Shown here piece after piece: positions 40 to 57,826 of a DNA stretch of 64,000 nt. Positions within the stretch are counted from its first letter, which is position 1; each line of letters opens with the position of its first letter. The stretch spans positions 1 to 64,000 of the forward strand of contig JAFGQN010000244.1 of NCBI GenBank assembly GCA_016935665.1, read 5' to 3'. Below the pieces are notes generated by a model. That model did not search any database and had not been told where the DNA came from. It saw nothing but the letters and a program-made list of their open reading frames with translations. The stretch comes from Deltaproteobacteria bacterium. GTDB taxonomy: Bacteria > Myxococcota_A > Polyangia > JAAYKL01. Position numbers and translations under genes: made by a program.

Positions 40-278
40 TGTCACACCTCCATTTCGAGAGTGACTATACACCATCAAAAAAATTATTTCGTGCGCGTGT
101 TCACAGGACGGATACGTAGAAGATTTGTGGTTAGTTAATCGAAACTTTGTTACCTGTTTGAATCAAATGGGGATAATTTTCATATAATATTATAATTGAT
201 CATTCAACGCCGTATAAAAGAATTCTCAATCTGTGGCATTTGCACAAATTTTCGGATTTATGGAACATAGGACAATTG

Positions 279-1918: not shown

Positions 1919-1963
1919 CAGCAATCTACTTGCGGAACAATTGTGATTGTGTCGACGTTGCGA

Positions 1964-3082: not shown

Positions 3083-3112
3083 CTATTTATACTGTGAATA
3101 GTAGCGTGAAAA

Positions 3113-5664: not shown

Positions 5665-5878
5665 ATTTGAAGAACCGAGTTCTGTCTTACGCATTGCAGA
5701 AATAGTATGTTCACATTTAAACAACAGGCAGGGACGTTATCTGATATTATCCCAGGTATGCTTTGCTCGGGGACCAGACTTTGATAATTGCGTTTTGTTA
5801 CAAAACGTAGATTTCCGCAACGAGGCACTTGGTAAAAAAAAATTAGATTTCTAATCTGCATAAATGGGTACACCGGGG

Positions 5879-7291
5879 CTATTGACTTCCCGTTCGAACA
5901 CGGAGACGTTTCTTCAAATATAGATGTGCTTCAAGAAACGCTACACAGGTCAATGCCAGATGTAAATTCATGTTTAGGATGTGGAAAGAAGGGCCGGTCA
6001 TAGTGCGAAAAGTAAGAAAGGAAAAAATGATTAAAGGGATATTATGTATCGTCTTCTCTGAAGTTCTCGAACATTTTAGAGTTTGAAGCGAGAAAATGAT
6101 GACTTTGTATAGCAGGTATAGATGAAAAATAAAAAGCCATGATGTTCCCAGAATACCGATGTCAACCAAAGAATCCAGATAAGTATTATCAAGCGTGGAC
6201 AAATGCTTAATTTCGCCGCTTAGTACTGCTTTATGCCCGCTGTAATAGCCTGTCCCAAACCAGGGATTATTCAAGAAAACATCCCACCCTATTTCCCACC
6301 TCCAAGCGCGTCCGGTCATAGACATAAGCTCTTTTGATGATTGACCTCTAGACATATAGTCTACAACAAATTGAGTACTTCCATATGCCACCAGTAAAAA
6401 GATTACTGGAACGCTAAATACGAAGAACTTTTTATGATCTTTAATCAAAAGCAAGCAAAGAAGAATGGCCGTTGCAAAAATGGATGTTCTTGAATGGCTG
6501 AGAATCATCACTATAAATGATATCAACGTTGCCAATACAACAGGGATTCGATACTGTTTTTTATCCAACATGTACAGAAAAAGTACTAAGAAGACAGTGC
6601 CGCCGATTTGGGTTAAGGTATTGGCATTTACATAGGGAATTATACTGCCACCTGTGCTGGAACCGACATCCTTTCCTGACTCTGATATACGGAATGCTAC
6701 ATCTGGAAAAAGAACCATACTGACTACACCAAAAATCTCCAGTGCGAAAAGCAAATACATGGTGCCGTACAACAAGTTATGTGGTGTTTGTTGAATTATG
6801 GATTTTTGAATCACGACGGCGGTCCAGGACATATAGACGAGCAGTTCAAAGGATTTCCACATTGATTCCTGCGGAAAGGGAGAATATGTGCTCGAAGCGA
6901 GACAAAACAGAAAATAGAGGAAGTAATAAAGAAGCAGTTTCGATTTTGGAATTTTTAGTTTTAGAATTTGCAGAAGGTTTGTTCCGAATAATATCAAAAA
7001 GATCACGATGCGCAGATATCGTTTCATCCCCAACTGACTATCACTGGAAAAAGACGCTGCGTGCATTTCAACATCAACCGGCCAAGATAATAGACCAATT
7101 ATCAAAAGAGTAAAAATGTAAAAATTTCTATTTGAAAAGAAGCTTTTTTTCCATGTGATAAATGGTTCAACTTTTGAAAAAAAACAAATAATTATTGTGC
7201 CGACTAACAGAATAGTAATGTAGACTTTCAACGAAAAACCTATAACTACCGATAATTGGGATATTAACGGTGAACTTTCAATCCTCTGCAA
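5879..7291 (-). CDS. O-antigen/polysaccharide polymerase-ligase (Wzy/WaaL family)
   Basis: A polytopic protein of up to 470 residues with about 11-12 membrane segments. The Wzy_C region holds 'SHSRTSIFATAILL', a periplasmic loop with 'MTGRAWRWEIGWDVFLNNPWFGTGYYSGH' and then 'TLDNTYLDSLVDIGILG', the pattern of the O-antigen ligase/polymerase superfamily. Polymerase is preferred over ligase because a flippase is adjacent and no lipid A genes are near. The track's start codon is TTG and no in-frame ATG lies upstream, so the true start is uncertain. It is followed by the flippase after 214 bases when the later flippase start is used. Confidence 0.85.
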   Translation of the reverse strand: MQRIESSPLISQLSVVIGFSLKVYITILLVGTIIICFFSKVEPFITWKKSFFSNRNFYIFTLLIIGLLSWPVDVEMHAASFSSDSQLGMKRYLRIVIFLILFGTNLLQILKLKIPKSKLLLYYFLYFLFCLASSTYSPFPQESMWKSFELLVYMSWTAVVIQKSIIQQTPHNLLYGTMYLLFALEIFGVVSMVLFPDVAFRISESGKDVGSSTGGSIIPYVNANTLTQIGGTVFLVLFLYMLDKKQYRIPVVLATLISFIVMILSHSRTSIFATAILLCLLLIKDHKKFFVFSVPVIFLLVAYGSTQFVVDYMSRGQSSKELMSMTGRAWRWEIGWDVFLNNPWFGTGYYSGHKAVLSGEIKHLSTLDNTYLDSLVDIGILGTSWLFIFHLYLLYKVIIFSLQTLKCSRTSEKTIHNIPLIIFSFLTFRTMTGPSFHILNMNLHLALTCVAFLEAHLYLKKRLRVRTGSQ

Positions 7292-7651
7292 TCAATGGCG
7301 AAAATCGGCTCGAACTGACAACTTCTGTTCTCCATTGTAGGAAGCTTCGTTTTCGCATTGGGTATAACAAATTCAGCGCTTTTTAATTGACGTATAGTTG
7401 AGAAATGTGTCTTTTTGATTGAGAATCGTCTGCGGGTAAATACGGCTGATGTTTCTATATTGATCTGTATTTGAATGCTTGGGTTGAGATTTTTGTATCT
7501 GGTTTTTTTGAACCGAACTTTGTGCGGTGATACACATTACAAATAATTCCACTCCAGATCTAAGAGACCTATTCATTCTTTATACATTGACTTCGTAACA
7601 TCGTTCATCTGCTGTGGTCCTTACCCCTTCACCAATATAATGAATGACTAT
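7292..7651. other. Intergenic gap between the WecA-like and polymerase genes
   Basis: 360 bases. A 67-codon minus-strand frame (7373-7576) has no recognisable protein features and weak initiation context, so I do not call it a gene. This gap lies at the change from the ordinary-composition genes (wbp trio, WecA) to the AT-rich block, and is the natural place for a terminator or promoter, though no convincing hairpin with a T-run was seen. Confidence 0.45.
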
Positions 7652-9118
7652 TTAGTCGCTTTGTCTATCAGCCTCTTTCGATTGTTTGCAACTCGCTTCA
7701 ACAACAGAATCGAAAACGATGCGTAGCAATAGATCAGCGTATGGATCAAATGGTGAATCTTCGGAGCGCCAACCGAAGTTCATTTCGTAGTTCTCCGTTT
7801 TCTCACCACATTGGATAGAATGACGAATGCTGATTTGACGAATTTTTGAAGCTGCGTGGCCGTGATAGGTCACCCATTTCCAATAGTTCAAATAGTATGT
7901 GCCATTCTTTGTGCATTGCGCGATAACCAGTCCGCTGTGTTCACAAAACTCGTCCAGTGCCAATTGAAGCGCTTCGAGCGTTTGCGCCTCATGTATATTT
8001 AAAATAAATGCAGGAAGATTTTGTTTGATACGTAGAGTGAAGTCGCTATATTCTCCAGTGGATTCCAGTCGCCTCTCCCCGCGATGAAACATCCCTACCG
8101 CTCGCATCATGATAAATATTAATACCGTGGAAACAAGCAAGGCTGCACCAACTTCCCACTTTTCCCTTCCCAGGTATATGGCGATGGCAGTGGCGGTAAA
8201 TAGAATAGATATTCCGTATATAATCAGTACACTTTTTTTATGGGTTAGTCCCATTTCCAGTAATCGATGGTGAAAATGACCTTTGTCAGCAAGAAATATG
8301 GGCCGTTTCGCAACGAAACGTCTTGCGATGGCAATGAGCGTATCAAAAATAGGGACACCCATAGCAAGAATGGGTACTAAAAGCGCAACGGCTGTGCCGC
8401 CTTTGACGCCCATCAGAGATGTTGTCGCCAAAATGAATCCAATCAGCATGGAGCCGGTATCACCCATAAAGATTGTCGCCGGATTGAAATTGAAAATCAA
8501 AAAGCCAATCAGTGCACCACCTAAAGCGGCTGCGTACAGCGCCACAAGTGCATTACCCGACAGCAACCCAATAGTGAAGTTAACGATGCACACGAAAAAG
8601 GACACTCCGGCAGCAAGCCCATCGAGCCCATCAATCAGGTTTACGGCGTTGATGATTCCAACTATCCACAGCACAGTGACGGGCAGTGCGAAGATTCCCA
8701 TATGCAGCAACCCAACAAACGGAAGAGAAACCAAATTAATTTGAAATCCGCCAAAATAGGCACTGATTGCAATAATGAGTTGTACTAATAACTTGTGAAT
8801 CGCTCGAACATTTCGAATATCATCTATCGCGCCAAGCGTCGCGATAGCGATACTGCCGGAAAAAAGGGATATGATTCGCAATGTATCATTTTTGAACGCT
8901 TCTGTCAGCGGATTTGTAAATAGCATTATACCCAGAATGGGTGCGAGAAACCCGAATAATATAGCGATCCCACCAAGTCGTGGAATCACTGTTGTATTGA
9001 TTCGTCTCGTGCCAGGTTTGTCGACAGCGCCGACTTTAGTTGCGATTTTGCGCACCAGAGGCGTGACAAGTACTGCAACCGCTATGGATGAAACAAATGT
9101 TACAATTATCGTGTTCAC
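7652..9118 (-). CDS. WecA/TagO-like polyprenyl-phosphate GlcNAc-1-phosphate transferase with a C-terminal extension
   Basis: A 488-residue integral membrane enzyme that would load the first sugar phosphate on undecaprenyl phosphate. The MraY/WecA family motifs are all present: 'LGAIDDIRNV' (aspartate pair), 'NLIDGLDGLAAG', 'FMGDTGSMLIGF' and the His-rich 'DKGHFHHRLLEMGLTHKK'. The start codon is GTG. Family members are usually about 330-370 residues; here about 130 extra soluble residues follow the last helix, with no domain I recognise ('HEAQTLEALQLALDEFCEHSGLV'). It lies 56 bases downstream of the epimerase in the same direction, so it probably initiates the polysaccharide made by this cluster. 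Confidence 0.92.
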   Translation of the reverse strand: MNTIIVTFVSSIAVAVLVTPLVRKIATKVGAVDKPGTRRINTTVIPRLGGIAILFGFLAPILGIMLFTNPLTEAFKNDTLRIISLFSGSIAIATLGAIDDIRNVRAIHKLLVQLIIAISAYFGGFQINLVSLPFVGLLHMGIFALPVTVLWIVGIINAVNLIDGLDGLAAGVSFFVCIVNFTIGLLSGNALVALYAAALGGALIGFLIFNFNPATIFMGDTGSMLIGFILATTSLMGVKGGTAVALLVPILAMGVPIFDTLIAIARRFVAKRPIFLADKGHFHHRLLEMGLTHKKSVLIIYGISILFTATAIAIYLGREKWEVGAALLVSTVLIFIMMRAVGMFHRGERRLESTGEYSDFTLRIKQNLPAFILNIHEAQTLEALQLALDEFCEHSGLVIAQCTKNGTYYLNYWKWVTYHGHAASKIRQISIRHSIQCGEKTENYEMNFGWRSEDSPFDPYADLLLRIVFDSVVEASCKQSKEADRQSD

Positions 9119-44051: not shown

Positions 44052-47033
44052 ATGAACTCCATCGATGAAAGGGTCACTGCCGCCACTCAGGATTTGATGA
44101 TACCAGCAACGGTATTGGAAACGTCTAAAGACACGGAACAGTTTTACCTGGGGAGTCGGTTGCAGACCCTCGGGGTTATCGGGAACGGGGGAATGGGTAC
44201 GGTGCTCAAAGTGTTTCACCGGGAACTCAAGGTGAACCGCGCCGTCAAGCTTATCGATGCGGAGGTGCTGCATCGGTCGCATCAGGTATTTGAGCGGTTC
44301 AGGCAGGAAGCCCTCATCGCCTCGGAGATTTCTCACCCGAATATAATAAAAGTGTATGATCTTGATAGAACGCCGGCCGGGTGTCCGTTTATGCTGATGG
44401 AGCTTTTGGAAGGGATGAATCTGGAATCGCTGATTTCGCAGAATGCGCCCCTTTCATTGTCGGCGGTAATTCGCCTGCTGGCAGGACCGGCGGATGCGCT
44501 GGATGCCGTTCATCGCAAAGGAGTGGTGCATCGGGATTTGAAACCGGCCAATCTGTTTTTGACCCACAGTGGCACAGTGAAGGTTCTTGATTTTGGCATA
44601 TCGGGCTTCATTTTCGGACCAAAGGATGCGCGCATTACCCGGGACGGAGAGGTGGTTGGTACGCCGCTCTATATGGCGCCGGAGCAGTTGACCGGCAATA
44701 GGCTGGATGGCCGGGCAGATGTTTACGCCCTGGGGGTGATTGCGTATGAGTTACTTACGGGAAAAACGATTTTTAAGTACAAAACGATACCCCAACTCAC
44801 CACGGCCATTATGAACGATACACCATTGGCGCCGTCCGTGTTGAATCGGACGCTGGCGGCGCACGTGGACGGCGTGATAGCCAGGGCGCTCGAAAAGGAA
44901 GCGGTCGGTCGATATGATACTGCACTGGATTTTGTTCGCGCGCTGGCGGGCCATGAATACACACATTTAATATCCAGCGTGATTCGTAAAGAGTTGTTGT
45001 GCGCCATTGACTCGTCTGAGTTTCACTGTCTGGAGTTGCAAAGCCATACAGTGAAATCAAGTAATGACACCTGCTTCTCGCAGAATGATGAACAACCAGT
45101 TGATGCACCTGATGCAAATACCGACGCAGAACAATTTGTGCCAAATGTGAGAAAAAAATCGAACTGTTCGAAGGCAAATTCAAAAAAGCGTAAATGGCGG
45201 TTTGTCGTCTGGTGGATTCTGTTGGGTGGACTGGCTGCCGTTCCTGGTATGCGGCTTCTTCTACCGACAACGGCATCCGCGCCTCACGTCACAATGACCA
45301 TCGATTCTGTGGAACTGGTTGGGATTAAAGACGATATGACATGGTGTACGCGAGCCATACGCCAGTTGCTGGGTGCGTATCTTTCACTGGATCCCAATAT
45401 TGAATTGATTGATCACAAAGGCGTCATCAGCAAACAACAGTCCGATGACTTGCATTTGCGTCTCACTGTGCATGCGACTTACGACACCCAATGGCGGTTT
45501 GCCATGAGTGTGCAAAATGACGCCAATGAGACGATTTTTTCCAAATTGGCCAATACTGCGGGGTTCGAAGATGCCATCGATGAACTCACGCTGGATTTAT
45601 ATCAGTTCGTGGGATTCGAGCTTATGGCGCCAGACTCGGAAGCAGGGGGAACGGACCAAAGCGCCTCCGCATCCATTGAAAAACGTCGGCAGAAGGAACT
45701 GACAACCATGGCACTGAAGGCGCTTATCTCGGAGGGATTGTTGCCGCGGGTTGGCAGTGTGACCGCTCTTATGCCGCCTTCTGCACAGCGGAGATTCTTT
45801 GATGCCTTCCATGCATATTTGCAATGCGTCATTGGTGAGTCGGCAAAAGAGTGTATGGAACAGCAACCGTTTCCACCGGTTGCTCATACAGGCAATGAAA
45901 CTGTTGATGCACTGTGGAAATTGTTTTCATCGGCAAACAAAACGACCACATGCGACGCAATTCGCCGGGGACCAGCAGGCGTTCGAGAACTGGCGCCGGT
46001 GTTGCCTGACTACTTTGCGTGCGAGACGTCCATGGACAAAATATGTGGCAATACAGATACGTTCTGGCGCAGATACGGATGTGCAATTGCTTCAGCAAAA
46101 GGGGACAGCGCCAGTACAGCGTTGAATTATATATATTCTGGGTTAAAGATGGATGCGGCCAACAAATTTTATGCGGGTATCGCCGTATTGCCGCAGACTG
46201 GACTGGCCAGTGAAAACGGAAACAGCTGGTTTCAGCGATTGGTCTGGCGAAATGGCGAAAACGAAAAATCGGTTGCCGCGTTGCATTTTTCAATGGAAAT
46301 GGCGAGACGACACGGTGAAATCGCGTTGATCTGGGCCAGACGGTCTTATGGGGCCGCATTGAAGACTGCGTTGGCGCTGGAAACGGCGGGCTGGTTGACT
46401 GAAGGAATGGTGCAGCATTTGCAGTTGTATTTGCAAATGTTATCCGACGGGAAGGGAACACCTGCGACACAACTTGAGCAGTTACGGCACTCGCTTTATC
46501 CAATCATATTATTCAAGGAAGAGTCGCTCGCGAATAAGTGGTTGAAAATCGTTGAGGAAAGTGAAAACGAAAACGAACAACTCACCGAAGCTTTAAGGTT
46601 GATCGCTTATGTTCTCGACAAAACCAGGGGAAGAACGTGTCGTCCATCCGCTTTTAAGACCTTTTCAAATGAAGCGGATTATCTTTGTGGGCGTCTGGAC
46701 CGCATCATTCGAAAATGTCCTGTCACAGTGGAAACGGCGCAGTCCAGCGCGTGGAACACATTTATAAGTGCAGATGCCAACCTTGAAAAAGGAAACGTAA
46801 ATGAAGCGAGAGCGCTTTTTAATAAACTTGAATCAGATGCGATTTTTCGAGTGAATTATCCGTTGATTTCAATTTCTGCATTAAAGCGTCTGGGAGATGT
46901 CGCTGTTGAAATGAAGCGCTTTGACGACGCTGCGACCTGGTATCGCCAGTATCTGTCCGTGTGGGGCGCTCTGGATTTACCCGTACGTGACTACATGGAG
47001 GCATCGCGTTATCTCAGCGGTCAACGAATGTGA
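44052..47033 (+). CDS. Membrane Ser/Thr protein kinase with a large Cys-containing C-terminal region
   Basis: A 993-residue protein. Residues about 35-300 are a Hanks-type kinase: Gly loop 'GNGGMGTVLKVF', Lys in 'RAVKLI', 'GVVHRDLKPANLFL', 'KVLDFGISG' and 'VGTPLYMAPEQ'. A membrane helix is at about 381-402 ('FVVWWILLGGLAAVPGMRLLL'). The remaining 590 residues, probably periplasmic, resemble no family I know. They contain helices and several Cys ('QCVIGESAKECME', 'CETSMDKICG') that may form disulfides. It could sense an envelope signal and phosphorylate cytoplasmic targets. The response regulator gene follows directly. Confidence 0.93.
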   Translation: MNSIDERVTAATQDLMIPATVLETSKDTEQFYLGSRLQTLGVIGNGGMGTVLKVFHRELKVNRAVKLIDAEVLHRSHQVFERFRQEALIASEISHPNIIKVYDLDRTPAGCPFMLMELLEGMNLESLISQNAPLSLSAVIRLLAGPADALDAVHRKGVVHRDLKPANLFLTHSGTVKVLDFGISGFIFGPKDARITRDGEVVGTPLYMAPEQLTGNRLDGRADVYALGVIAYELLTGKTIFKYKTIPQLTTAIMNDTPLAPSVLNRTLAAHVDGVIARALEKEAVGRYDTALDFVRALAGHEYTHLISSVIRKELLCAIDSSEFHCLELQSHTVKSSNDTCFSQNDEQPVDAPDANTDAEQFVPNVRKKSNCSKANSKKRKWRFVVWWILLGGLAAVPGMRLLLPTTASAPHVTMTIDSVELVGIKDDMTWCTRAIRQLLGAYLSLDPNIELIDHKGVISKQQSDDLHLRLTVHATYDTQWRFAMSVQNDANETIFSKLANTAGFEDAIDELTLDLYQFVGFELMAPDSEAGGTDQSASASIEKRRQKELTTMALKALISEGLLPRVGSVTALMPPSAQRRFFDAFHAYLQCVIGESAKECMEQQPFPPVAHTGNETVDALWKLFSSANKTTTCDAIRRGPAGVRELAPVLPDYFACETSMDKICGNTDTFWRRYGCAIASAKGDSASTALNYIYSGLKMDAANKFYAGIAVLPQTGLASENGNSWFQRLVWRNGENEKSVAALHFSMEMARRHGEIALIWARRSYGAALKTALALETAGWLTEGMVQHLQLYLQMLSDGKGTPATQLEQLRHSLYPIILFKEESLANKWLKIVEESENENEQLTEALRLIAYVLDKTRGRTCRPSAFKTFSNEADYLCGRLDRIIRKCPVTVETAQSSAWNTFISADANLEKGNVNEARALFNKLESDAIFRVNYPLISISALKRLGDVAVEMKRFDDAATWYRQYLSVWGALDLPVRDYMEASRYLSGQRM

Positions 47034-47039
47034 CAGAAT

Positions 47040-47072
47040 TGTTCACACGGTTCTCACACAGTTGTCACGCGG
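47040..47072 (+). promoter_or_regulatory. Pho-box-like direct repeats before the response regulator gene
   Basis: Three 7+4 units directly after the kinase stop: TGTTCAC-ACGG, TTCTCAC-ACAG, TTGTCAC-GCGG. The period is exactly 11 bases, as bound by PhoB/OmpR-type regulators. It ends 65 bases before the regulator start and suggests autoregulation. Confidence 0.6.
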
Positions 47073-47137: not shown

Positions 47138-47890
47138 ATGACAACTAAAATACTGGTTGTTGATTCGGATGAATCAATTGTGGACAAAATTTCGGCGTTG
47201 TTTAATGGCGCCGGCTATACGTGTACGGGTGCGCATTCAGGTGCTGAATGCGTACGGCGAATTCAGAATACGCGGTTTGATTTGATTATTATGGAGTTGG
47301 AGTTGCCGGACATGCCGGGAACGGAGTTATGCAGAACACTCAAATATAATGGCGCTACAGCCAGTACACCGTTGATGTTTTTATCCCGCATGGGTGCGGA
47401 AATGGATCGTGTTGTCGGACTCTCGTTGGGGGCCACGGATTACGTGGTCAAACCGTTTAGCAGCAGGGAATTGGTGTTGCGCGTGCGCGCTATTCTGCGA
47501 AGGACTGCCCAAAGAAAAACGCAGTCTGTTTTGACCAATGGCGTGATAACACTGGACCCCCGCAGCCACCAGGCCACTTTGGATTCGGAAACGCTGACGT
47601 TGACGCGAATTGAATTCAGATTGCTGGCGTCACTGGTGGGAGCGGGCGGACATGTGCTGAAACGGGAACAGATTATTGAACTGGTATGGGGAGAGAATGC
47701 CCATGTGCTGGATAGAACAGTGGATGCGCATATTCGAACGCTGCGCAAAAAGATGGGCGTTGCCAAAGATGAACTGGAAACGGTTCAGGGGGTTGGTTAT
47801 CGAATCCGTCAACATAGAGATGTCCATTGTGAAAACACCGCTTCGAAGAATTCAGATGTCGGTTACACAACTGTAAATGATATGTTCTGA
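47138..47890 (+). CDS. PhoB-like OmpR-family response regulator with Glu at the phospho-acceptor site
   Basis: A 250-residue DNA-binding protein. The receiver starts 'MTTKILVVDSDESI' and keeps the acidic pocket, a Ser at the switch position ('LMFLSRMG') and the Lys in 'YVVKPFSSREL', but residue 53, where PhoB has the phosphorylated Asp, is Glu ('DLIIMELELPDMPG'). The C-terminal winged helix, 'LTRIEFRLLASLVGAGGHVLKREQIIELVWG' and 'VLDRTVDAHIRTLRKKMG', is strongly PhoB-like. The ATG at 47138 follows AGGGAG. There is no histidine kinase gene beside it. Glu may mimic phosphorylation, giving a constitutively active or level-controlled regulator. Its likely targets are its own repeats and those at 47893. 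Confidence 0.92.
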   Translation: MTTKILVVDSDESIVDKISALFNGAGYTCTGAHSGAECVRRIQNTRFDLIIMELELPDMPGTELCRTLKYNGATASTPLMFLSRMGAEMDRVVGLSLGATDYVVKPFSSRELVLRVRAILRRTAQRKTQSVLTNGVITLDPRSHQATLDSETLTLTRIEFRLLASLVGAGGHVLKREQIIELVWGENAHVLDRTVDAHIRTLRKKMGVAKDELETVQGVGYRIRQHRDVHCENTASKNSDVGYTTVNDMF

Positions 47891-47892
47891 AG

Positions 47893-47925
47893 TTGTCATA
47901 CAAGCTTCATTCAACTGTCAAAGAA
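47893..47925 (+). promoter_or_regulatory. Pho box upstream of the lipoprotein-TonB operon
   Basis: TTGTCAT-ACAA-GCTTCAT-TCAA-CTGTCAA-AGAA: three 7+4 units with AT-rich spacers, close to the E. coli Pho box (CTGTCAT plus four A/T). It starts three bases after the regulator stop. TACCTT at 47932-47937 begins ten bases after the third half-site, the right place for a -10 of a PhoB-activated promoter. Confidence 0.7.
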
Positions 47926-48001
47926 CTCGCCTACCTTCCTCCCCATGACAGTTGAACAACAACCTTGCCTATTAAGGTTTTATCCAGGGAGGATACTGAA
48001 G

Positions 48002-49387
48002 ATGTCAAAATTTACATGGAAATTAGTGGTGCTCTTTTGTCTGATGCTGATGGTCGTTTTGCTGGTTGGCGGATGCGAAGAAGACGACGATAAACCAGGT
48101 GAAAACAGGAAAACAGACAGTGACAAAATTACAGCAACAGACAGTGACACCATAGACACTGCCAGCGATACCGCAACAACAACGCCTATGGCGGAATGTC
48201 ACGGGGAGATGAACACCGCCAAAACAATGTGCATTGTCAGTGGTGTTCTTACCGGTGCAACGCACCATTGGACGAAGGCCTACACGTATGTGTTGCGCGG
48301 CGGCGTTTTTGTGGGTGATGATGTGAATGAGACTGTGTTGACAATTGATCCGGGTGTGACTGTTTTGGGAGAAGTATCCACCAAGGGTATGCTTGTTGTG
48401 ACAAGGGGGTCCAAAATTATGGCCGCCGGAACGGTAACCGAGCCAATTGTATTTACGTCCTCGAATCCTGTTGGTTCGAGAGCCCGTGGCGACTGGGGAG
48501 GCTTAATTATAAATGGACGCGCTACCATTAATGGTTGTGACACGCCTCCTTGTGAAGCCAGTGGCGAAGGGGGAACAGGTTGGTATGGTGGAACCAATGA
48601 TGACGACAACAGTGGTATACTGCAGTATGTACGCGTTGAGTTTGCTGGTCGTCTCATTAGTGAAGACAATGAACTCAATGGCATCGCTTTTCAGGGCGTT
48701 GGCCGTGGTACAGTTGTTGACAATGTGCAGGTACACATGAATGCAGACGATGGAGTTGAATTTTTTGGCGGCACAGTTAGTGTAAAACATGTTTACCTGA
48801 CCGGCATTGGTGATGATTGTCTGGACTGGACCGATGGCTGGAGAGGATACGCACAATACATTCTGGCAGTACAGTCGCCGGATGCGGGCGACCAGGGCAT
48901 TGAAGCGGACAACAACGCTGAAAATAACGCACTTACACCAATTGCAAATCCAATCCTTTCCAATGTGACTCTGTTGGGTTCCGGTGGTGAAAACTCTGAT
49001 ATTGGCATGCTTCTGCGAGAGGGCACCAAAGCGACTATTCACAACACAATCGTAGCCAATTTTGCCGATGGTTGCATCGACATGGACGGTGATACGATTA
49101 CACATGCCGCTAACGGTGAAGTGATAATCAATAACTCCATTGTAAATTGTACGGTGAATTTTATGGAGGGTGGGGATGAAGTTCCTGCCACAGTGGTGTC
49201 AGACACGTGGAATGCAGGCACAGGCAATCAAATTGGAAACGCGCTTGCGGGTATCTATTCGACAGGCATTGCCATCGGTACGGGTGCAGCACCCGCCAAT
49301 GCATTTTTTGACCAGGTGAATTACGTGGGGGCCGTCACGCAGGAGGCGGACTGGACCGCTGGCTGGACCACCACCGCACCAAATTGA
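48002..49387 (+). CDS. Beta-helix-type surface lipoprotein
   Basis: A 461-residue protein. The signal peptide ends 'VLLVGGCEEDDDK' (lipobox), followed by an acidic Thr/Ser/Asp linker. The body has turns typical of a right-handed parallel beta-helix, for example 'VTRGSKIMAAGTVTEPIVFTSS', 'RGDWGGLIINGRATI', 'LQYVRVEFAG', 'LNGIAFQGVGRGTVVDNVQVH' and 'DDGVEFFGGTVSVKHVYLTG'. I recall this widespread family, of unknown activity, near TonB receptor genes. It lacks a recognisable lyase site. The ATG at 48002 follows AGGGAGG; the track adds 19 codons. It is the first gene after the Pho box and its transcript meets a hairpin at 49410. Confidence 0.82.
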   Translation: MSKFTWKLVVLFCLMLMVVLLVGGCEEDDDKPGENRKTDSDKITATDSDTIDTASDTATTTPMAECHGEMNTAKTMCIVSGVLTGATHHWTKAYTYVLRGGVFVGDDVNETVLTIDPGVTVLGEVSTKGMLVVTRGSKIMAAGTVTEPIVFTSSNPVGSRARGDWGGLIINGRATINGCDTPPCEASGEGGTGWYGGTNDDDNSGILQYVRVEFAGRLISEDNELNGIAFQGVGRGTVVDNVQVHMNADDGVEFFGGTVSVKHVYLTGIGDDCLDWTDGWRGYAQYILAVQSPDAGDQGIEADNNAENNALTPIANPILSNVTLLGSGGENSDIGMLLREGTKATIHNTIVANFADGCIDMDGDTITHAANGEVIINNSIVNCTVNFMEGGDEVPATVVSDTWNAGTGNQIGNALAGIYSTGIAIGTGAAPANAFFDQVNYVGAVTQEADWTAGWTTTAPN

Positions 49388-49480: not shown

Positions 49481-50287
49481 ATGATGATGAAGAAAACAGC
49501 GATGTCGGTAAAACATGGAATTCTGGCGGGGCTGATAGGGGCAATTGTATTTGTACTGGGGGCTCAAGACGAGGTTTGCGCTTCTTCAACAATGAAGATG
49601 GCGGAACGTCTTGCCACCCTAAGAAAAGAAGTCGACGGTCTGTCGGGAGAACTTGAAGAAAGAAAAGAAGAAGTAAAAGGGCGTATTCGGTCCTATGCCA
49701 CGCAGAAAGCAGAACTGGAAGCAGAAATTCAACGTGCAAAGATGCGTTTGGCGCAGCTTCGTGAATCTCATTCAAAGCGAGTGGAACAATTGAGCGAGGA
49801 GGATACGCAGATTGCGGTCCTGACTCCGGCTGTTTTGGAGTCCATTGGTATCTTGAAAAACAAAGTGGCGTCGGGGATTCCGTTTAAGCGCGATGAGCGA
49901 ATTGCACAGCTGGATCGATTGATTCGGCAGATTGATGACAAGCTGCTTCATCCCGTAAACGCGTTTGCCAGACTTTGGGACCAAACGGAAGATGAATTTC
50001 GACTGGCCAGAGAAAGTGGCATGTACAAGCAGGTCATTTCGCTCGACGGTAAAGAAGTTTTGGCAGATGTGGTGCGCATTGGCATGGTGGCCATGTATGT
50101 GCAAACCAAAGACGGAAAAGTAGGTAAAAGCGTGCACCGCAACGGTGAGTGGCATTTCGAAACGATTCGGAATACCGAGCAGCGCAGACAGGTGTTGGTT
50201 CTGTTCGATTCATTCAAAAAGCAGATACGCACCGGATTGTTTGTTCTTCCAAACGCGGTTGGAACAACGTCAAAAGGGATGAAGTGA
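49481..50287 (+). CDS. DUF3450-family periplasmic protein
   Basis: A 268-residue protein with a signal peptide and a long coiled coil ('LATLRKEVDGLSGELEERKEEVKGRIRSY...AELEAEIQRAKMRLAQL'), then a small C-terminal domain with 'VLADVVRIGMVAMYVQTKDGKVG'. DUF3450 proteins regularly precede TtpC/ExbB/ExbD/TonB genes. The family is thought to be a periplasmic accessory of TonB complexes, though its job is unproven. I use the ATG at 49481. Its stop overlaps the next start (TGATG). Confidence 0.88.
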   Translation: MMMKKTAMSVKHGILAGLIGAIVFVLGAQDEVCASSTMKMAERLATLRKEVDGLSGELEERKEEVKGRIRSYATQKAELEAEIQRAKMRLAQLRESHSKRVEQLSEEDTQIAVLTPAVLESIGILKNKVASGIPFKRDERIAQLDRLIRQIDDKLLHPVNAFARLWDQTEDEFRLARESGMYKQVISLDGKEVLADVVRIGMVAMYVQTKDGKVGKSVHRNGEWHFETIRNTEQRRQVLVLFDSFKKQIRTGLFVLPNAVGTTSKGMK

Positions 50288-51750
50288 TGAAGTTGCGAAT
50301 ACAGATATTGTTGGTTTGGCTGGTGATAATGGCCAAAGTTGAAGTCGCGGCTGCGGATGACTTTTTTGATGCGTATCAAAAGGAATTTGCCTTTTTGGAG
50401 GCGGAGCGAAAGGCCTTAAAAAAGCGAATCGACGAGGTGGAAAACGAAACAAACAAAAAAGAAGCCGCTGCCAAAAAAGAATTGAGTGTATTGCAAAGTC
50501 AGCTTTTGGCCATTCACAACAGGGCGGACAGCATCGAGATGGATTTGGATGAAACAGCGCGTGACAACACGGATATGGAAGAACGTCAGGACATGCTCAA
50601 AGAGACGCTGGCCAGGGCTCAGGAAACAATAGAACAATATGGGTTCGATGTTTCAGCGCCTTCTGACAACGTGGATGTCCAGGCCACGCAGATAGTGAAT
50701 CTATTCAAATTGGTGCAGCAGGCGTATGACATGGGGGCAACAACGGCTGTTTCCGAAGGAGATTTCTTTTTAACCAACGGTAAAAAGGTTAAAGGAAAAA
50801 TTCTGACCATCGGTCATATTGCGGCTTACGGCATTTCAGATGCCGGGGGCGGTGTGTTGGCACCGGCGGGCAGTGGTCGCTACAAGGTCTGGGACAAAAC
50901 CACAAAAAAAACGGCGGCGATGATGGTTGGCGGACAGTTTCCCAGTGAAATGCCAATCTTCCTGTACGAATCCATGGAAAAGCCGGTTGAGCACAAAGAC
51001 GAAAAATCATGGAAGCAGATAGTCGACAGCGGCGGCATCATTGCGTGGATCATTGTTGGACTGGGGGCGATCGCTGTTTTGATGATTCTGGCGCGGGTGA
51101 TCATTTTGATTGTGGCGGGAACGCGTACCGAAAAGCTAATCGTTTCCGTGAGCGAACTGGTGCGCGGCGGTCAGATGGAAAAAGCGCTTGCAAAGTGTAA
51201 AAAGGCCAAAGGCGCCGCAGCCCATGTGCTGCGCGTGACCATTGAAAATCTGCACAAAGAGCGGGAAAAAATAGACGACATCGTTTCTGAAGCAATTCTG
51301 AATAAAGCGCCAATGGTGGACCGATTCAATACCTCTATTTTGGTTGCTGCGTCAGTGGCACCGCTTCTGGGGTTGTTGGGAACGGTAACAGGTATGATTT
51401 CCACCTTTGACATCATCACCGAACACGGCACCGGTGATCCCAAAATGTTGTCCGGTGGCATTTCTGAAGCGTTGGTGACAACGGAACTGGGCTTGATTGT
51501 AGCCATTCCAGCGCTGTTGTTTGGGACGTTGCTCAGCGGCAGAGCGAGTGCCATCATGGATGCGATGGAGAGAGCGGCGTTGCAGATAATTAATATTGAC
51601 GATGTGAAAAACAAATCCGTTGAAAACGAAAATGATGCACAAAGCGATGGCAAATCGCCTCGTTCCGACGGAGGGAAACCCGCTTCCGAATCGAAAGATG
51701 TTCCATCATCTGCCGGCATTTCCAGAAAACCCGCTGAGGCAGCCGTATGA
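50287..51750 (+). CDS. Extended ExbB/TolQ-family protein (TtpC-like)
   Basis: A 487-residue protein. A signal sequence and a periplasmic coiled coil (about residues 25-130) precede a small domain ('FFLTNGKKVKGKILTIGHIAAYGI'), then come three membrane helices of the MotA/TolQ/ExbB proton channel: 'IIAWIIVGLGAIAVLMILARVIIL', 'ILVAASVAPLLGLLGTVTGMISTF' and 'ALVTTELGLIVAIPALLFGTLL'. This layout equals TtpC of Vibrio TonB2 systems, a third inner-membrane component needed with ExbB and ExbD. The C-terminal tail is Ser/Lys-rich. It shares a four-base ATGA overlap with the next gene. Confidence 0.92.
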   Translation: MKLRIQILLVWLVIMAKVEVAAADDFFDAYQKEFAFLEAERKALKKRIDEVENETNKKEAAAKKELSVLQSQLLAIHNRADSIEMDLDETARDNTDMEERQDMLKETLARAQETIEQYGFDVSAPSDNVDVQATQIVNLFKLVQQAYDMGATTAVSEGDFFLTNGKKVKGKILTIGHIAAYGISDAGGGVLAPAGSGRYKVWDKTTKKTAAMMVGGQFPSEMPIFLYESMEKPVEHKDEKSWKQIVDSGGIIAWIIVGLGAIAVLMILARVIILIVAGTRTEKLIVSVSELVRGGQMEKALAKCKKAKGAAAHVLRVTIENLHKEREKIDDIVSEAILNKAPMVDRFNTSILVAASVAPLLGLLGTVTGMISTFDIITEHGTGDPKMLSGGISEALVTTELGLIVAIPALLFGTLLSGRASAIMDAMERAALQIINIDDVKNKSVENENDAQSDGKSPRSDGGKPASESKDVPSSAGISRKPAEAAV

Positions 51751-52382
51751 CACCGTCTTATGTCGAGCAACTGTCCAGCTACCTCAAAAGTGGTGGCTTT
51801 GTCATGGTGCCGCTGGTGCTTCTGGCGGGCGTATTGTGGTTTGGTTTGGGCTTTCGCATGTTCACTTTGCGCAGGGGGTCGTCCCGGACTGTCCGCAAGC
51901 TGATTGAACGCTGGCACAGCGGCCGTCGCCAGCGCGTTAAGGGGATTATTCCAAGAGCGATTGCGATGGCGTTGTCGGAACTGCGTCCTGGCGTGCCCGA
52001 TATTCGCCATCGGCTTACCAGTAAACTGGCGCCATTTGATGTGGAGATGGAACGATACTCTGTGCTTACCAAAGCCATTGTAGCAGTGGCGCCCCTTTTG
52101 GGGCTTTTGGGGACAGTGTCTGGCATGATAGAAACGTTTGATTCTTTGGCCGACATGTCGTTGTTTGCGCAATCTGGAGGAATTGCCGGTGGCATCTCGC
52201 TGGCATTGTTCACAACGCAAATGGGGCTGGCAGTGGCGATACCCGGTTTGCTGATTGGTCGTGTTCTCGATCAGCGCCAGACATCACTGCAAATGGAAAT
52301 TCAAAAGATAAAAGATGTTGTGGCTTCTCTGGATAGCCACGCCACAAAGGCCCCTTGGGACTATCAAGGAAAAGTGGCATGA
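51747..52382 (+). CDS. exbB: ExbB-like proton channel subunit (MotA/TolQ/ExbB)
   Basis: A 211-residue protein with three membrane helices. 'LLGLLGTVSGMIETFDSLADM' and 'GGIASG..LALFTTQMGLAVAIPGLLIG' (here 'GGISLALFTTQMGLAVAIPGLL') are the signature of ExbB/TolQ channels, which use the proton gradient with ExbD to energise TonB. It is a normal length and overlaps its neighbours by four bases on both sides. Confidence 0.94.
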   Translation: MTPSYVEQLSSYLKSGGFVMVPLVLLAGVLWFGLGFRMFTLRRGSSRTVRKLIERWHSGRRQRVKGIIPRAIAMALSELRPGVPDIRHRLTSKLAPFDVEMERYSVLTKAIVAVAPLLGLLGTVSGMIETFDSLADMSLFAQSGGIAGGISLALFTTQMGLAVAIPGLLIGRVLDQRQTSLQMEIQKIKDVVASLDSHATKAPWDYQGKVA

Positions 52383-52783
52383 GATATTTTAGAAAGAAAA
52401 ATACCAATACGGGCGTGGACATTTCTCCCCTCATCGATATGGTGTTTATTTTGCTCATCTTTTTTATGGTGTCGACGACATTCGTGAAAGATATGAAAAT
52501 TGATATCGAGAGACCAGGGGCCGCCAGCGCGTCACCGGCATCCACCAAATCCATTCGCATTCATCTTGATCGTACTGGCAATCTTTACATTGAAGGGCAA
52601 CCCATTAAGCCGTGGATGCTGCAAAGTCGCGTTAGAGATTTACTGAAAGGCGGCGCATCTGGCCAGGTGCTGGTGATTACCGATCGCCTGGTACCTGCCG
52701 AGAAGCTTGTCGAAGCGGTGGATCAGTGTCGGCTGGCCGGCGCAACAGATGTGGGCGTGGCAACGGAAAAAGAAGCGGGCTAG
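52379..52783 (+). CDS. exbD: ExbD/TolR biopolymer transport protein
   Basis: A 134-residue protein with one N-terminal membrane helix. 'VDISPLIDMVFILLIFFMVSTTFV' has the essential Asp in 'PLIDMVF'. The periplasmic domain follows ('IRIHLDRTGNLYIEGQPI'). It forms the proton-driven motor with ExbB. The ATG at 52379 overlaps the exbB stop; the track starts eight codons earlier. Confidence 0.95.
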   Translation: MRYFRKKNTNTGVDISPLIDMVFILLIFFMVSTTFVKDMKIDIERPGAASASPASTKSIRIHLDRTGNLYIEGQPIKPWMLQSRVRDLLKGGASGQVLVITDRLVPAEKLVEAVDQCRLAGATDVGVATEKEAG

Positions 52784-52814
52784 CCCAGGGCAACGAGACA
52801 ACGGATTGGTGAAC

Positions 52815-53471
52815 ATGCATTTATATTCAAAACAGGAGCGTCTTGCGCGTTTTGCCATTGCCTTGCTGGTAATGATTCTGGGAAGCGCCGGTGTGTTGTC
52901 ATTGGTGCTGGCCATGAACAGCCTGACACCTCCCAAAAAGGAAGCCAAAGTCGACTACAAGGAAATGACGGCAGCGCAAAAGAAAAAGCCAAAGCCCAAA
53001 AAGAAGCGACGCGAGCAAAAAAAGCAGCGGCCGAAGCGCACGACCCGAAAAGCGGCGCCGGCCCCTGTGATTTCCACTGCGATTTCGGGACTGAGTTTTG
53101 ATTTACCGCAAATGGAGGGGTTTGGTTTGGGAGAAGCAGTGGACCAACTGATTGGTGAACAGGCTGTTAAAGATATGGTGATGACGCCGGAGTCTGTGGA
53201 TGTTGTTCCCGAGCCTGTGTACGAAGGAACGCTGGAATATCCAGCCCGCGCCAGACGAAACAATCAGGAAGGGTATGTGGTGATTAACATGCTGATTGGT
53301 GCGGACGGTGCCGTTGAAAAAGTCAATGTGTTGGAATCGGTGCCTGTGGGCGTGTTCGATAGTGTCACGTTGAACTGGGCGAAAAATCTGCGGTTCACGC
53401 CGGCCTATTACAACGGCAAACCGGTCAAGACATGGGCGCGTCGCAGAATACCGTTCAAATTGAGTGGGTGA
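52815..53471 (+). CDS. tonB: TonB energy transducer
   Basis: A 218-residue protein. An N-terminal membrane helix ('FAIALLVMILGSAGVLSLVLAM') is followed by a Lys/Arg/Pro-rich segment ('KKKPKPKKKRREQKKQRPKR') in place of the usual Pro-Lys/Pro-Glu rod, and the C-terminal TonB domain: 'EYPARARRNNQEGYVVINMLIGADGAVEKVNV' and 'LRFTPAYYNGKPVKTW'. It transmits energy to outer-membrane receptors. I use the ATG at 52815; a GTG at 52809 is possible. The spanning region is short, as in many TonB2-type proteins that work with TtpC. Confidence 0.94.
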   Translation: MHLYSKQERLARFAIALLVMILGSAGVLSLVLAMNSLTPPKKEAKVDYKEMTAAQKKKPKPKKKRREQKKQRPKRTTRKAAPAPVISTAISGLSFDLPQMEGFGLGEAVDQLIGEQAVKDMVMTPESVDVVPEPVYEGTLEYPARARRNNQEGYVVINMLIGADGAVEKVNVLESVPVGVFDSVTLNWAKNLRFTPAYYNGKPVKTWARRRIPFKLSG

Positions 53472-53474
53472 TTT

Positions 53475-54653
53475 ATGAAGTTGAAACAACGACAGTTATT
53501 AGTTGGTGCTCTGGTGGGAATGTTCTTATCAATTGGAGCAACGCTGGGGGCAACCCCAAAAAAGGAAACCCGGATTGAAGAAGAGATAAATACGTTGGCA
53601 CTTGTATCTGTGCTTATTTCGGACAAACATTTTGATCGCGCGGTGCACATGCTGGAGCAAATCGATTTGAAAAAATCGGGCGTGGATAAAGCACACTATT
53701 ATTTGCTGTTGGGGCTTGCACATTTGTCGCTTTCCAATGTGGAACCCGCGTATGCAGCGCTTAAGGCATCTGTTAAAAACGGGCAATCCGACCCGATGGT
53801 GTATGTGTTTTTGGCGCAGGCGGCATTTAAGCTGGCAAAATACAAAGAGACCGTTGAATTTGTAGACGCATCCAAAGGCGCAGGCAACGCGATAGCGGCG
53901 ACGCATATGCTTAAAGCCAACGCGTGCTGGAAATTGAACGATTATCATGGCGCATGGAAGGCGTTGCAAAACGGTATTGCGCGATTTCCCGATAACGCCG
54001 AAATGAAACGTTCATCAGTACTTGTGCTGGTGGAAGCGGGGTTGTTCAGGCAGGCGATTGGCGAGGGCCGATCGTTTTTGACGGCCCATGACGTGAAACC
54101 CGAAGACTACACGGTGATTGCTGAAGCCTTCATGAATGGCGGCGCCCCTGAGGAAGCCATTTTGTTTTTGGAGGCGGCCAGGCTCACTTTCCCCAATGCA
54201 CCGGAATTAACAGTGCAATTGGCCCGTGCCTACATGAAGGCCGGCAATGAATTGATCAGTGCACGACTGTTTGAACATGCGGCGATGGAGAATGAAACAT
54301 TTTGTGCAGATGCGGCCGAACTCTATCGGCGCAATGGCCAGCATTACAATGCGCTGCGCATGAACGAGCGTATTGTGGCGCAGCAGCAGAAAATCCGCCA
54401 GCGGATGGGAATACTGCTCGAAATGTCCCGGTTCGAAGAAGCCGCGGGGCTGGCGCCCCGATTGTTTCGTCTGGGGCTTCTGGATGAGGCGGCGGTTCGA
54501 TACGGCCTCGCCTATGCACAATTTAAGAACGGCGAATTGAGTGAGGCGGAACAAACGCTCTCAAACATTTCAGATGAAGTCTATTTTAACAAAGCCATGG
54601 AGCTTCGACTGGCCATTGAACGGTGTCGCGCCGATGGCTGGCAATGCGATTAA
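53475..54653 (+). CDS. TPR-repeat periplasmic protein
   Basis: A 392-residue protein with a signal peptide ('LLVGALVGMFLSIGATLGA'). The rest is helical tetratricopeptide repeats, e.g. 'HYYLLLGLAHLSLSNVEPAYAALKASVKNG' and 'PMVYVFLAQAAFKLAKYKETVEFVDAS'. TPR proteins are a fixed member of TtpC/DUF3450 TonB clusters and are thought to contact the motor or receptor. It begins three bases after tonB. Confidence 0.9.
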   Translation: MKLKQRQLLVGALVGMFLSIGATLGATPKKETRIEEEINTLALVSVLISDKHFDRAVHMLEQIDLKKSGVDKAHYYLLLGLAHLSLSNVEPAYAALKASVKNGQSDPMVYVFLAQAAFKLAKYKETVEFVDASKGAGNAIAATHMLKANACWKLNDYHGAWKALQNGIARFPDNAEMKRSSVLVLVEAGLFRQAIGEGRSFLTAHDVKPEDYTVIAEAFMNGGAPEEAILFLEAARLTFPNAPELTVQLARAYMKAGNELISARLFEHAAMENETFCADAAELYRRNGQHYNALRMNERIVAQQQKIRQRMGILLEMSRFEEAAGLAPRLFRLGLLDEAAVRYGLAYAQFKNGELSEAEQTLSNISDEVYFNKAMELRLAIERCRADGWQCD

Positions 54654-57600
54654 ACGAAATCATTATGTTCAATATTTTTCTTAACCCCAATTGGGTAGTT
54701 GTTGTTGTGCTGATTCTGTATTCGACGGTTGCACGTGCGCAGGATATCCCTGGAAAAGTGCATGGTGTTCTATTTGAAGATGCCAAAAAAACGCCCATTC
54801 AAAACGTATCGATATTCAGTAAGGCCCGTCCGGACTCTGTGGTTGAAATTAACGATGGTGTGTTTGAATTGACGTTGCCCCCTGGCAGACATGAGCTGCT
54901 GGTGCATTTGGGAAACAGTGTGGTGGCGCGCCTTGGGGAAGTGGATGTGGTAGCGGGATACTCGGTTGAAGTGGTGGGCAGTATCAACGCCACGGGCGAT
55001 GTGACATCCATCCAGGTGGAAGGCATTTCAAAAATTGAGGTTCCCAAACAGGATGCCGCAGCAATGGAAAATGCGCAAATGTCTGCGTTGGAAGGTCGGG
55101 TTATTCACGCGGAGACCGGGGAAGGTATTGAGGGCGCACGGGTGTTTGTTCGTGGTCAGTCGGGCGAAGCGGTAACCGATGCGTCCGGGCATTTTCACTT
55201 TAATGTTCCGGTGGGCGTGCATGATGTTTCGGTCCTGCATCATCAATACGCTACGGTCACAAAAAAAAATGTGTCCGTGGTTGCCGATGCGCCCACAATT
55301 CTTGAAATAAAGGCCACACCACTCGGGGTGATGCTCCAGGATTATGTGGTGACCGCTCCACGCATCGAAGGCGGCACTGCATCATTGATGGAAGAACGAA
55401 AAGAGTCCACTGCTGTGGAGGACGTGATCGGTGCGGAACAAATGTCGAAAACCGGTGATTCCAATGCTGCATCGGCGTTGAAACGGGTGACGGGAATTAC
55501 TGTGGTGGGCGGCAAATATGTGTATGTGCGCGGCCTTGGGGAACGGTATTCATCCACATTGTTTAACGGCGCCATGTTGCCCAGTCCCGAACCGGAACGG
55601 CGCGTGATTCCGCTGGATATGTTCCCGTCTGGAATGCTCGAAAGTGTTGTGGTTCAAAAAACCTATAGCCCTGAACTGCCCGGAGAGTTTGGCGGCGGAG
55701 TGGTGATGTTGCGCAGCCGCAATTATCCATCGACATTGGTTTTTGATATTTCGGGCAGTGGCGAATTGCTCACCGGGACTACTTTTTCAAAGGGATGGAA
55801 AACCAAATCCGGCCCCACTGATTGGCTCGGTATTGACGGTGGATATCGATCCTTGCCAGGTGAATTTGTTGCTGCCACAAAGGACAAGGCGTTGGCAGTG
55901 GCGGACCTGGTCAATCCGGATGGCGGGTTTACGCCGGAGGAGCTGGAACATTTGGGTGAAATTATTCCCAAAAACTGGCACAACTGGAAAGGAACAGTGC
56001 CCCCCAATTGGGGATTGTCCTTAAGTGTGGGAAACACGTTTAAACTAAAGCGCGTTAAATTGGGGGTTCTTGGTTCAGCCATGTACGACAATGAATGGGA
56101 GAATGTGTCGCCCAAAATGGTAGTGTACAATATGTCGGAGGATTCACTCCGGGCATTCCATGAATACGATTTTGAGACCAACACCAATACCGTTAAGACA
56201 GCAGCGTTCCTTGCGGTGGGCCTTGAGTTTAGCGAACATCACAGTTTGCGCAGCACCACCATGCTCAATCGCATCAGTGACAAAATGACACGCTGGTATC
56301 AGGGACGAAACGACGACGCGAATACCACTATTCGGGTTTTCCGCAGTCGCTGGGTAGAGCGACAGCTGTTTTCGCAGCAGTTATTGGGCGAACACGTGTT
56401 TGAAAGGTTGCATGATCTGGGAGTGACCTATCGCTACACGTTTTCCCGCGCATCCCGTCTCGAACCATTGCGATTGACGGCCCGCCAGGATTACGAAGAC
56501 TCCACCGGGAACTGGCGACTCTCCGACAGGCCCGAAGGCAACAGCATTTTATACAGCGAGTTGTTTGATATCACCCATGATTTGGGAATGGAAGTGAGTT
56601 TGCCATTTGAGTTTAACGCGAGGAACAATCTGAAATTGTTTGCCGGCGGAGCATTGATGATTCGGGACAGAGAGGTGGATACACGCCGGTTTAAGTACGA
56701 CAGCAAACGATCCAACACGTTTCCCGGGTCCGGGGGACCACTCACGTTGAACGATTTTGGCCAATTGTTCGTGGACGAGTATATTGGGCCATTCACGTAT
56801 GAGGGCGAGATGTACAATGGCTTTCAGCTGTTGGAAGCAACGATGAATACCGACAATTACAGCGCCAGTCAGAATCTGTCGGCGGGATATGGTAAAGCGG
56901 AATTGCAGTTGGTGGATACAGTTAAAGTGATGGGCGGGGCACGGGTTGAAAAGTCGGACCAGAATGTAAAAACATTCGAACTGTTTAATCCTGCGGGAGA
57001 AGAGGTGAATGCCGGTTTGGAAACGCTGGATGTATTGCCGGCGGCGACTGTCTCCTGGGAATTTAAAGACGGAATGATTATCCGCGGAGGTTACGGACGC
57101 ACCGTATCTCGACCGGAGTTTCGCGAGATGTCTCCCGCGTTGTTTAACGATGTGACGGGCGGCAATCCGATTGTGGGCAATGAGGATCTGAAAAGAGCCG
57201 TCATTGACAACTTTGATGTGCGCTGGGACTGGTTTTTCGCTCCTGGCGAGATGATTTCCCTTGGCGGTTTTTTCAAACAGTTCGATCAGCCCATCGAAGT
57301 GACCATTCGTTCTGCCGCGCAGTTGCAGGTATCGTGGCAGAACGCGCGTTCGGCACGTAATTTTGGACTGGAATTTGATTTAAAAAAGAACTTCGACTGG
57401 ATTTCCGAATCGCTGAAAGATATCTATTTTGCTGCCAATGCGTCGGTGATTCGGTCTCAGGTAAAATTGGATCCCGATGGTATTCAAACCAACAACAACC
57501 GACCATTGCAGGGGCAGTCACCGTTTGTTCTCAACTGTCAGCTGGGCTACGACAATGTGGATAATGGCCGTTCCCTGATAATGCTTTACAATGTGTTTGG

Positions 57601-57826
57601 AAAGCGAATATCGGAGGTGGGGGCGCTGGGATTGCCGGATACGGTTGAGTTGCCGTTTCATTCGTTGAGCTTTGTGGCCAAAATGAAAGTGAAAGAGAAG
57701 TTTAAATTTAGTTTCAAGATAGGCAATATATTAAATCAGACCGTGGCGTTTACCCAGGGGGGCAAAATCCGCTGGAAATATAAAAAGGGCATCAGCTTCT
57801 CGGTAGGTGCGGGATTTTCCTATTAA
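54644..57826 (+). CDS. TonB-dependent outer-membrane receptor with two N-terminal beta-sandwich domains
   Basis: About 1060 residues. After a signal peptide ending near 'TVARAQDIPG' come two carboxypeptidase-regulatory-like modules ('VHGVLFEDAKKTPIQNVSIF' and 'LEGRVIHAETGEGIEGARVFV...TDASGHFHFNVPVGVHDV'). A TonB box follows ('DYVVTAPRIEGG'), then the plug ('SNAASALKRVTGITVVGGKYVYVRGLGERYSSTLFNGAMLPSPEPERRVIPLDMF...EFGGGVVMLR') and a 22-strand-type barrel ending in an aromatic residue ('VGAGFSY'). The ligand is unknown; Pho-box control hints at a phosphorus source. The ATG at 54644 overlaps the TPR stop; starts at 54623 and 54665 are possible. Confidence 0.94.
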   Translation: MRLNEIIMFNIFLNPNWVVVVVLILYSTVARAQDIPGKVHGVLFEDAKKTPIQNVSIFSKARPDSVVEINDGVFELTLPPGRHELLVHLGNSVVARLGEVDVVAGYSVEVVGSINATGDVTSIQVEGISKIEVPKQDAAAMENAQMSALEGRVIHAETGEGIEGARVFVRGQSGEAVTDASGHFHFNVPVGVHDVSVLHHQYATVTKKNVSVVADAPTILEIKATPLGVMLQDYVVTAPRIEGGTASLMEERKESTAVEDVIGAEQMSKTGDSNAASALKRVTGITVVGGKYVYVRGLGERYSSTLFNGAMLPSPEPERRVIPLDMFPSGMLESVVVQKTYSPELPGEFGGGVVMLRSRNYPSTLVFDISGSGELLTGTTFSKGWKTKSGPTDWLGIDGGYRSLPGEFVAATKDKALAVADLVNPDGGFTPEELEHLGEIIPKNWHNWKGTVPPNWGLSLSVGNTFKLKRVKLGVLGSAMYDNEWENVSPKMVVYNMSEDSLRAFHEYDFETNTNTVKTAAFLAVGLEFSEHHSLRSTTMLNRISDKMTRWYQGRNDDANTTIRVFRSRWVERQLFSQQLLGEHVFERLHDLGVTYRYTFSRASRLEPLRLTARQDYEDSTGNWRLSDRPEGNSILYSELFDITHDLGMEVSLPFEFNARNNLKLFAGGALMIRDREVDTRRFKYDSKRSNTFPGSGGPLTLNDFGQLFVDEYIGPFTYEGEMYNGFQLLEATMNTDNYSASQNLSAGYGKAELQLVDTVKVMGGARVEKSDQNVKTFELFNPAGEEVNAGLETLDVLPAATVSWEFKDGMIIRGGYGRTVSRPEFREMSPALFNDVTGGNPIVGNEDLKRAVIDNFDVRWDWFFAPGEMISLGGFFKQFDQPIEVTIRSAAQLQVSWQNARSARNFGLEFDLKKNFDWISESLKDIYFAANASVIRSQVKLDPDGIQTNNNRPLQGQSPFVLNCQLGYDNVDNGRSLIMLYNVFGKRISEVGALGLPDTVELPFHSLSFVAKMKVKEKFKFSFKIGNILNQTVAFTQGGKIRWKYKKGISFSVGAGFSY

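Follow-up and report, generated by a model that had tools for sequence, protein, structure and literature searches.

The Question Raised by the Regulator

How can a PhoB-like regulator be switched when the aspartate that should accept the phosphoryl group is replaced by a glutamate? This question is raised by a gene located in a 64,000-nucleotide stretch of genomic DNA (hereafter, the window), and it touches a broader one, since the switching of bacterial pseudo-receivers is still an open question (PMC12632262). The original prediction proposed that the Glu may mimic phosphorylation, or that the protein is plausibly controlled by Ser/Thr phosphorylation or by its amount alone. We analyzed the regulator itself, its relatives, and its surroundings, which begin with the following features:

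44052..47033, plus strand: membrane Ser/Thr protein kinase with HRD and DFG motifs, upstream of the regulator
47040..47068, plus strand: candidate Pho box, with 11-bp direct repeats resembling those of pst, of which three 11-nt copies are counted from 47043 onward; the regulator gene probably has its promoter box here
47138..47890, plus strand: pseudo-receiver OmpR/PhoB-type regulator, 250 aa, with Glu53, Ser10, and Thr100, and with Thr and Gln where E. coli PhoB has Arg201 and Arg219
47893..47921, plus strand: variant box TTGTCA/GCTTCA/CTGTCA, repeating every 11 bp, ahead of the lipoprotein-TonB operon
47932..47937, plus strand: candidate -10 element TACCTT, lying 11 nt beyond the third repeat

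A PhoB-Type Regulator with a Degenerate Receiver Site

The open reading frame contains both Response_reg (PF00072, E=3.5e-22) and Trans_reg_C (PF00486, E=1.3e-21), each above its gathering score, which assigns the protein to the OmpR/PhoB family. Its ATG start at 47138 is backed by orthologues beginning at the same residue and by a GGGAG upstream; an in-frame GTG at 47030 offers an alternative start that is not required. With the canonical PhoB model TIGR02154, the regulator scores 191.7 bits and fails the cut-off of 296.2, and the top named models, CreB and PhoB, each stay well under their own cut-off.

As announced by the original prediction, residue 53 is a Glu (GAG codon), at the place where every canonical PhoB of our set has its Asp. 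The expected switch Ser and conserved Lys are also present (Ser83 and Lys105) and, like Tyr102, are invariant in all five Glu53 members of the alignment, which also retain the dimer-face residues Glu111, Asp101, and Arg115. On the contrary, the acidic pocket, said to be kept, is broken. Indeed, residue 10, the Mg-coordinating Asp of canonical receivers (CheY Asp13), is a Ser in the window and a Ser or a Pro in the Glu-bearing orthologues, and the GADDYV motif has become GATDYV, the Asp100 position being occupied by Thr across the whole clade. Asp9 remains in the window regulator (Glu in the orthologue of one genome, G012). The regulator thus has neither the Asp53 nor the Mg ligand Asp10 of canonical PhoB. 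Moreover, its K+2 residue is Phe107, and a Phe at this position does not favor the active state (PMC12632262).

The AF2 model of the protein (mean pLDDT of 84.8, about 93 for the receiver) preserves both folds and matches MtrA with a TM of 0.76; RitR also ranks among the better structural matches over the full length (TM 0.70–0.73). This model cannot be used to tell an active from an inactive state, its receiver fitting the BeF3-activated YycF (0.8 Å) about as well as the VicR receiver (0.9 Å).

Judged by its residues, the regulator is hence an aspartate-less (pseudo-receiver) OmpR/PhoB regulator, which is a known kind of protein. ChxR of Chlamydia trachomatis has the same OmpR/PhoB architecture, a Glu at the phospho-acceptor position, and a direct-repeat DNA site, and is phosphorylation-independent (PMC3960148, PMC4395418), a likeness that holds by description rather than by sequence comparison; our regulator is a PhoB paralogue tied to a Pho/TonB locus, which ChxR is not known to be. 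RitR and HP1043/HsrA are likewise OmpR-type pseudo-receivers treated in the literature as phosphorylation-independent, but they carry other residues at the Asp position (Asn in RitR) and have other targets. The Asp is absent in about 2% of receivers (PMC12632262), Glu being its commonest replacement (PMC12632262, PMC4395418). Since roughly 119 matches were found in the genome of the window, one such protein is expected there, and its mere existence is ordinary.

Glu53 Is Kept in a Bacterial Family

We compared six metagenome assemblies belonging to one family: the genome of the window (G000), two of the same genus (G001 and G002), one of another genus (G010), a fifth Glu-bearing genome (G012), and G009, whose regulator is a sister within the same clade. 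The Glu-bearing orthologues are 67% and 64% identical to the window regulator within the genus, 41% in the other genus, and about 38% in G012. In the order G000, G001, G002, G010, and G012, residue 53 is Glu in all five, encoded by GAG, GAA, GAA, GAA, and GAG, and residue 10 is Ser, Ser, Pro, Ser, and Pro; G009 has Gly at position 53 and Arg at position 10, where the canonical PhoBs of the set have Asp. Within the genus, the receiver shows a pN of 0.24–0.28 versus a pS of 0.75–0.82, with synonymous sites saturated or near-saturated. Because pN is well below pS, the receiver is under purifying selection and not in decay. Since the Glu is kept in five genomes by two different codons in spite of this synonymous divergence, Glu53 itself is, on comparative grounds, a conserved trait and not a chance event. 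The four orthologues, in which an Asp would have pointed to a sequencing error or a local mutation, thus rule out both explanations. Among the 27 best matches inspected in a broad contig scan, Glu was found only in the three orthologues and in one unrelated Kaiserbacteria protein.

A Separate Canonical PhoB/PhoR Pair in the Same Genome

No histidine kinase is encoded beside the regulator, as had been noted at the outset. A canonical phoB-phoR pair lies elsewhere in the same genome, on contig C12 (phoB at C12:184-888). This PhoB shares with the regulator its fold, its subfamily, 39% identity, the dimer-face residues, and boxes made of 11-bp direct repeats, but differs from it by Asp53, Asp10, Thr83, Arg201, Arg219, and an adjoining kinase gene. 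In G002, neither canonical phoB nor phoR gave a match, although pst, phoU, and Pho-type boxes are present; this is either an assembly gap or a true loss, and a true loss would rule out any dependence of the G002 regulator on PhoB.

The Regulator Precedes a TonB2-Type Uptake Operon

Downstream of the regulator, we identified the following genes:

48005..49387, plus strand: beta-helix-type lipoprotein (lipobox LVGGC), without Pfam match, the beta-helix being read from the sequence pattern
49481..50287, plus strand: DUF3450 protein, TtpB-like (Pfam PF11932, E=4.5e-27)
50281..51750, plus strand: TtpC-like protein, with a DUF3450-like N-terminal part and a MotA/ExbB channel
51747..52382, plus strand: ExbB
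52355..52783, plus strand: ExbD, start uncertain (Pfam ExbD, E=4.5e-25)
52707..53471, plus strand: TonB, start uncertain (TIGR01352)
53475..54653, plus strand: TPR protein, TtpD-like
54623..57826, plus strand: TonB-dependent receptor with an N-terminal carboxypeptidase-regulatory-like domain

TtpB (DUF3450), TtpC, ExbB, ExbD, TonB, and TtpD (TPR) are thus united in one cluster, the very gene set of the Vibrio TonB2 system (TtpB2-TtpC2-ExbB-ExbD-TonB2-TtpD2, PMC6957404), and we take the role of TtpB2 from the same source (PMC6957404). Vibrio TonB2 is iron-regulated, whereas the window cluster adds a lipoprotein and a receptor, and its linkage points to the Pho regulon. In G000, G001, G002, G010, and G009, the lipoprotein gene is the next one after the regulator. 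In G012, the order is phoB, phoR, the Glu-bearing regulator, the Ser/Thr kinase, the lipoprotein, and the TonB operon; the same contig carries, further on, a Porin_O_P gene, pstB, and phoU, with about 28 kb from phoB to phoU. Moreover, the lipoprotein and the receptor are found near a canonical Asp-bearing PhoB in 13 sampled loci across the class. Because of these 13 loci and of the phoB-phoR/pstB/phoU linkage in G012, gene order indicates that the lipoprotein/receptor module is linked to the Pho system.

Two Related DNA Boxes Flank the Regulator Gene

We searched for Pho boxes using a matrix built from four pst/porin boxes, themselves chosen by the same 11-bp scan. This matrix locates a box upstream of the regulator in four of four orthologues (p≤0.004 each; p=0.004 in the window, 0.002 in G002, and 0/500 shuffles in G001 and G010), in shuffle tests that preserve base composition alone and use short regions. 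Before the lipoprotein gene, it gives a weak match in the three genus members (p=0.04–0.08), in which a variant box is found instead, whose core agrees at 13 of 15 positions in each of G000, G001, and G002 (0/300 shuffles each). The candidate -10 element follows with the same spacing in G001 (TACCTT) and G002 (TAGATT). The lipoprotein promoter of G010 fits the pst matrix (p=0.002) and not the variant box of the genus. By the shuffle test, a Pho-type triple box was not significant ahead of the lipoprotein gene in G012 and G009, where no clear variant box was seen, nor before phoB itself in G000 and G001.

Two DNA-binding positions, 201 and 219, are numbered here after E. coli PhoB, the in-genome PhoBs serving as the real control. 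In the six clade members, position 201 is Thr, Thr, Thr, Leu, Gly, and Gly, and position 219 is Gln, Gln, Gln, Gln, Cys, and Arg; the canonical PhoBs of the set have Arg at both. Arg201 and Arg219 are the base-reading residues of PhoB (PMC3973317), and the loss of Arg201 would fit an altered DNA target of the clade.

An Amount-Controlled Second Tier of the Pho Response?

How, then, might this regulator be controlled? We propose that it is a PhoB paralogue in which the replacements of Asp53 by Glu and of the Mg ligand by Ser or Pro would no longer permit normal phosphorylation, and which most likely dimerizes and binds DNA without it, its activity being set by the amount made. Because of the pst-like Pho box upstream of its gene, canonical PhoB~P (from the PhoB/PhoR pair of contig C12) is the most likely inducer of the regulator under phosphate limitation. 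The regulator would then bind the direct-repeat box that closely follows its own gene, akin to the Pho box yet different from it, and activate the lipoprotein/TonB2-type uptake operon, the box probably replacing the -35 element of the promoter. Of the initial proposals, independence from phosphorylation and control by amount are those that gained support, from the conserved Glu53 and Mg-ligand loss, the lack of a dedicated kinase, and the pst-like box upstream. The phosphorylation independence, the cascade from PhoB to the regulator to the operon, and the phosphate-related role are all inferred from genomic data, and we give the complete relay an even chance of being right. Against it stand G012 and G009, without a clear variant box, G010, whose lipoprotein promoter matches the pst matrix, and G002, which shows no phoB/phoR. 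A ligand or a partner could instead be what this rapidly evolving receiver responds to.

The next explanation is that Glu53 is a built-in phosphomimetic, contacting Ser83 and Lys105 and holding an active dimer, so that the protein would be permanently on. Besides the invariance of Glu53, Ser83, Lys105, and Tyr102 in the five Glu members, it is favored by the fact that Glu, the usual substitute of Asp, mimics phosphate in some regulators (PMC4395418, PMC12632262). On the other hand, position 53 is Gly in the clade sister of G009 and Ala or Gly in other cassette-linked regulators, and the Mg site is lost too. Moreover, an Asp-to-Glu change alone is often insufficient, PhoB being a named case, and DNA binding by ChxR does not depend on its Glu, as changing it to Asp or Ala does not abolish binding (PMC4395418). 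Mimicry, as first suggested, is hence possible, but as the sole explanation we hold it to be rather improbable; in view of the Gly of G009 and the ChxR precedent, such an effect may play a part without necessarily being the cause.

Alternatively, the regulator could work with canonical PhoB, as a heterodimer or a competitor for Pho boxes, and tune part of the Pho regulon. The related boxes, the common dimer face, and the proximity of phoB-phoR in G012 would agree with such a partnership, but the clade lacks Arg201 and, for the most part, Arg219, the lipoprotein box of the genus is unlike the pst boxes, and G002 retains the regulator while no phoB was found there, which makes it unlikely in our opinion.

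We consider it more doubtful still that the neighboring membrane Ser/Thr kinase phosphorylates and controls the regulator. The kinase announced beside the gene is there, with its HRD and DFG motifs, and its orthologue adjoins the regulator in G002 (cut by the contig end but collinear) and, at full length, in G012. However, G001, G010, and G009 lack it next to the regulator gene, although the regulator and the operon are conserved, and the window genome encodes 59 such kinases. The idea that this kinase controls the regulator thus draws weak support: linked in three of the six genomes, the kinase is unsupported as a universal partner, and its control is possible where it is linked (G000, G002, and G012). 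Finally, a functionless decaying receiver or an assembly artefact, which the fast evolution, the long branches, and the various ways in which receiver hallmarks were lost might suggest, is mostly refuted and very improbable, given the same Glu in four other assemblies at 38–67% identity, a pN well below pS, intact open reading frames, conserved gene order, and a confident predicted fold.

The amount-control model offers a conserved pseudo-receiver family whose canonical parent, PhoB, is encoded in the same genome, with a predicted input (the Pho box) and a predicted output (one boxed operon), and it is therefore directly testable. Its genomic context is unusually clear and, if the model is true, TonB2-type uptake, known from iron transport, would be tied to phosphate limitation in this group.

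Regulators Linked to TtpBC-Type Cassettes

We also compared ten TtpBC-type cassette loci carrying a PhoB-type gene. At least one catalytic residue is lost in nine of the ten regulators, a count that comes from a small sample of related cases and is not to be read as a probability. Position 53 is Glu in five (G000, G001, G002, G010, and G012), Gly in two (G009 and G210, the latter also with Ser83 changed to Ala and Lys105 to Arg), and Ala in one (G053); the ninth, G207, keeps Asp53 but has a broken Mg site, with GG replacing the acidic pair, and Lys105 changed to Glu. G266 has a canonical site. In the simpler lipoprotein-receptor loci, the regulators keep the Asp in 13 of 13 cases. The six family members form one clade (support 96/86). 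For a single ancestral pseudo-receiver at the origin of all nine degenerate regulators, the AU test gave p=0.18, and parsimony counted three changes, on a tree with long branches. We tentatively suggest, as a possibility that we do not favor, that PhoB-type regulators lose their receiver chemistry once captured by TtpBCD-type TonB cassettes, the window clade having become a kinase-free, amount-switched second tier of the Pho response with an altered box.

Several further observations concern these genomes. The G053 cassette contains, beside the Ala53 pseudo-receiver, a second and still more divergent receiver-like/PhoB-type open reading frame (L116:7083-7790). In the window genome, there are two more DUF3450-TtpC-ExbB-TonB-TPR cassettes (G000:C158, L166:8165-13431; G000:C2, L167:126-5122), each preceded by other lipoprotein-like genes, and no PhoB-type gene was seen in the stretches read. 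A second copy of the lipoprotein, about 47% identical, is found in G001 without a TonB cassette around it (L133:3619-5085 of G001:C221). At the other end of the window, positions 1–8000 have a GC content of 36–39%, versus about 50% for the rest, and carry a minus-strand block of genes for glycosyltransferases, an O-antigen-ligase-like protein, a polysaccharide flippase-like protein, and a WecG-type transferase, which looks like an acquired polysaccharide cluster.
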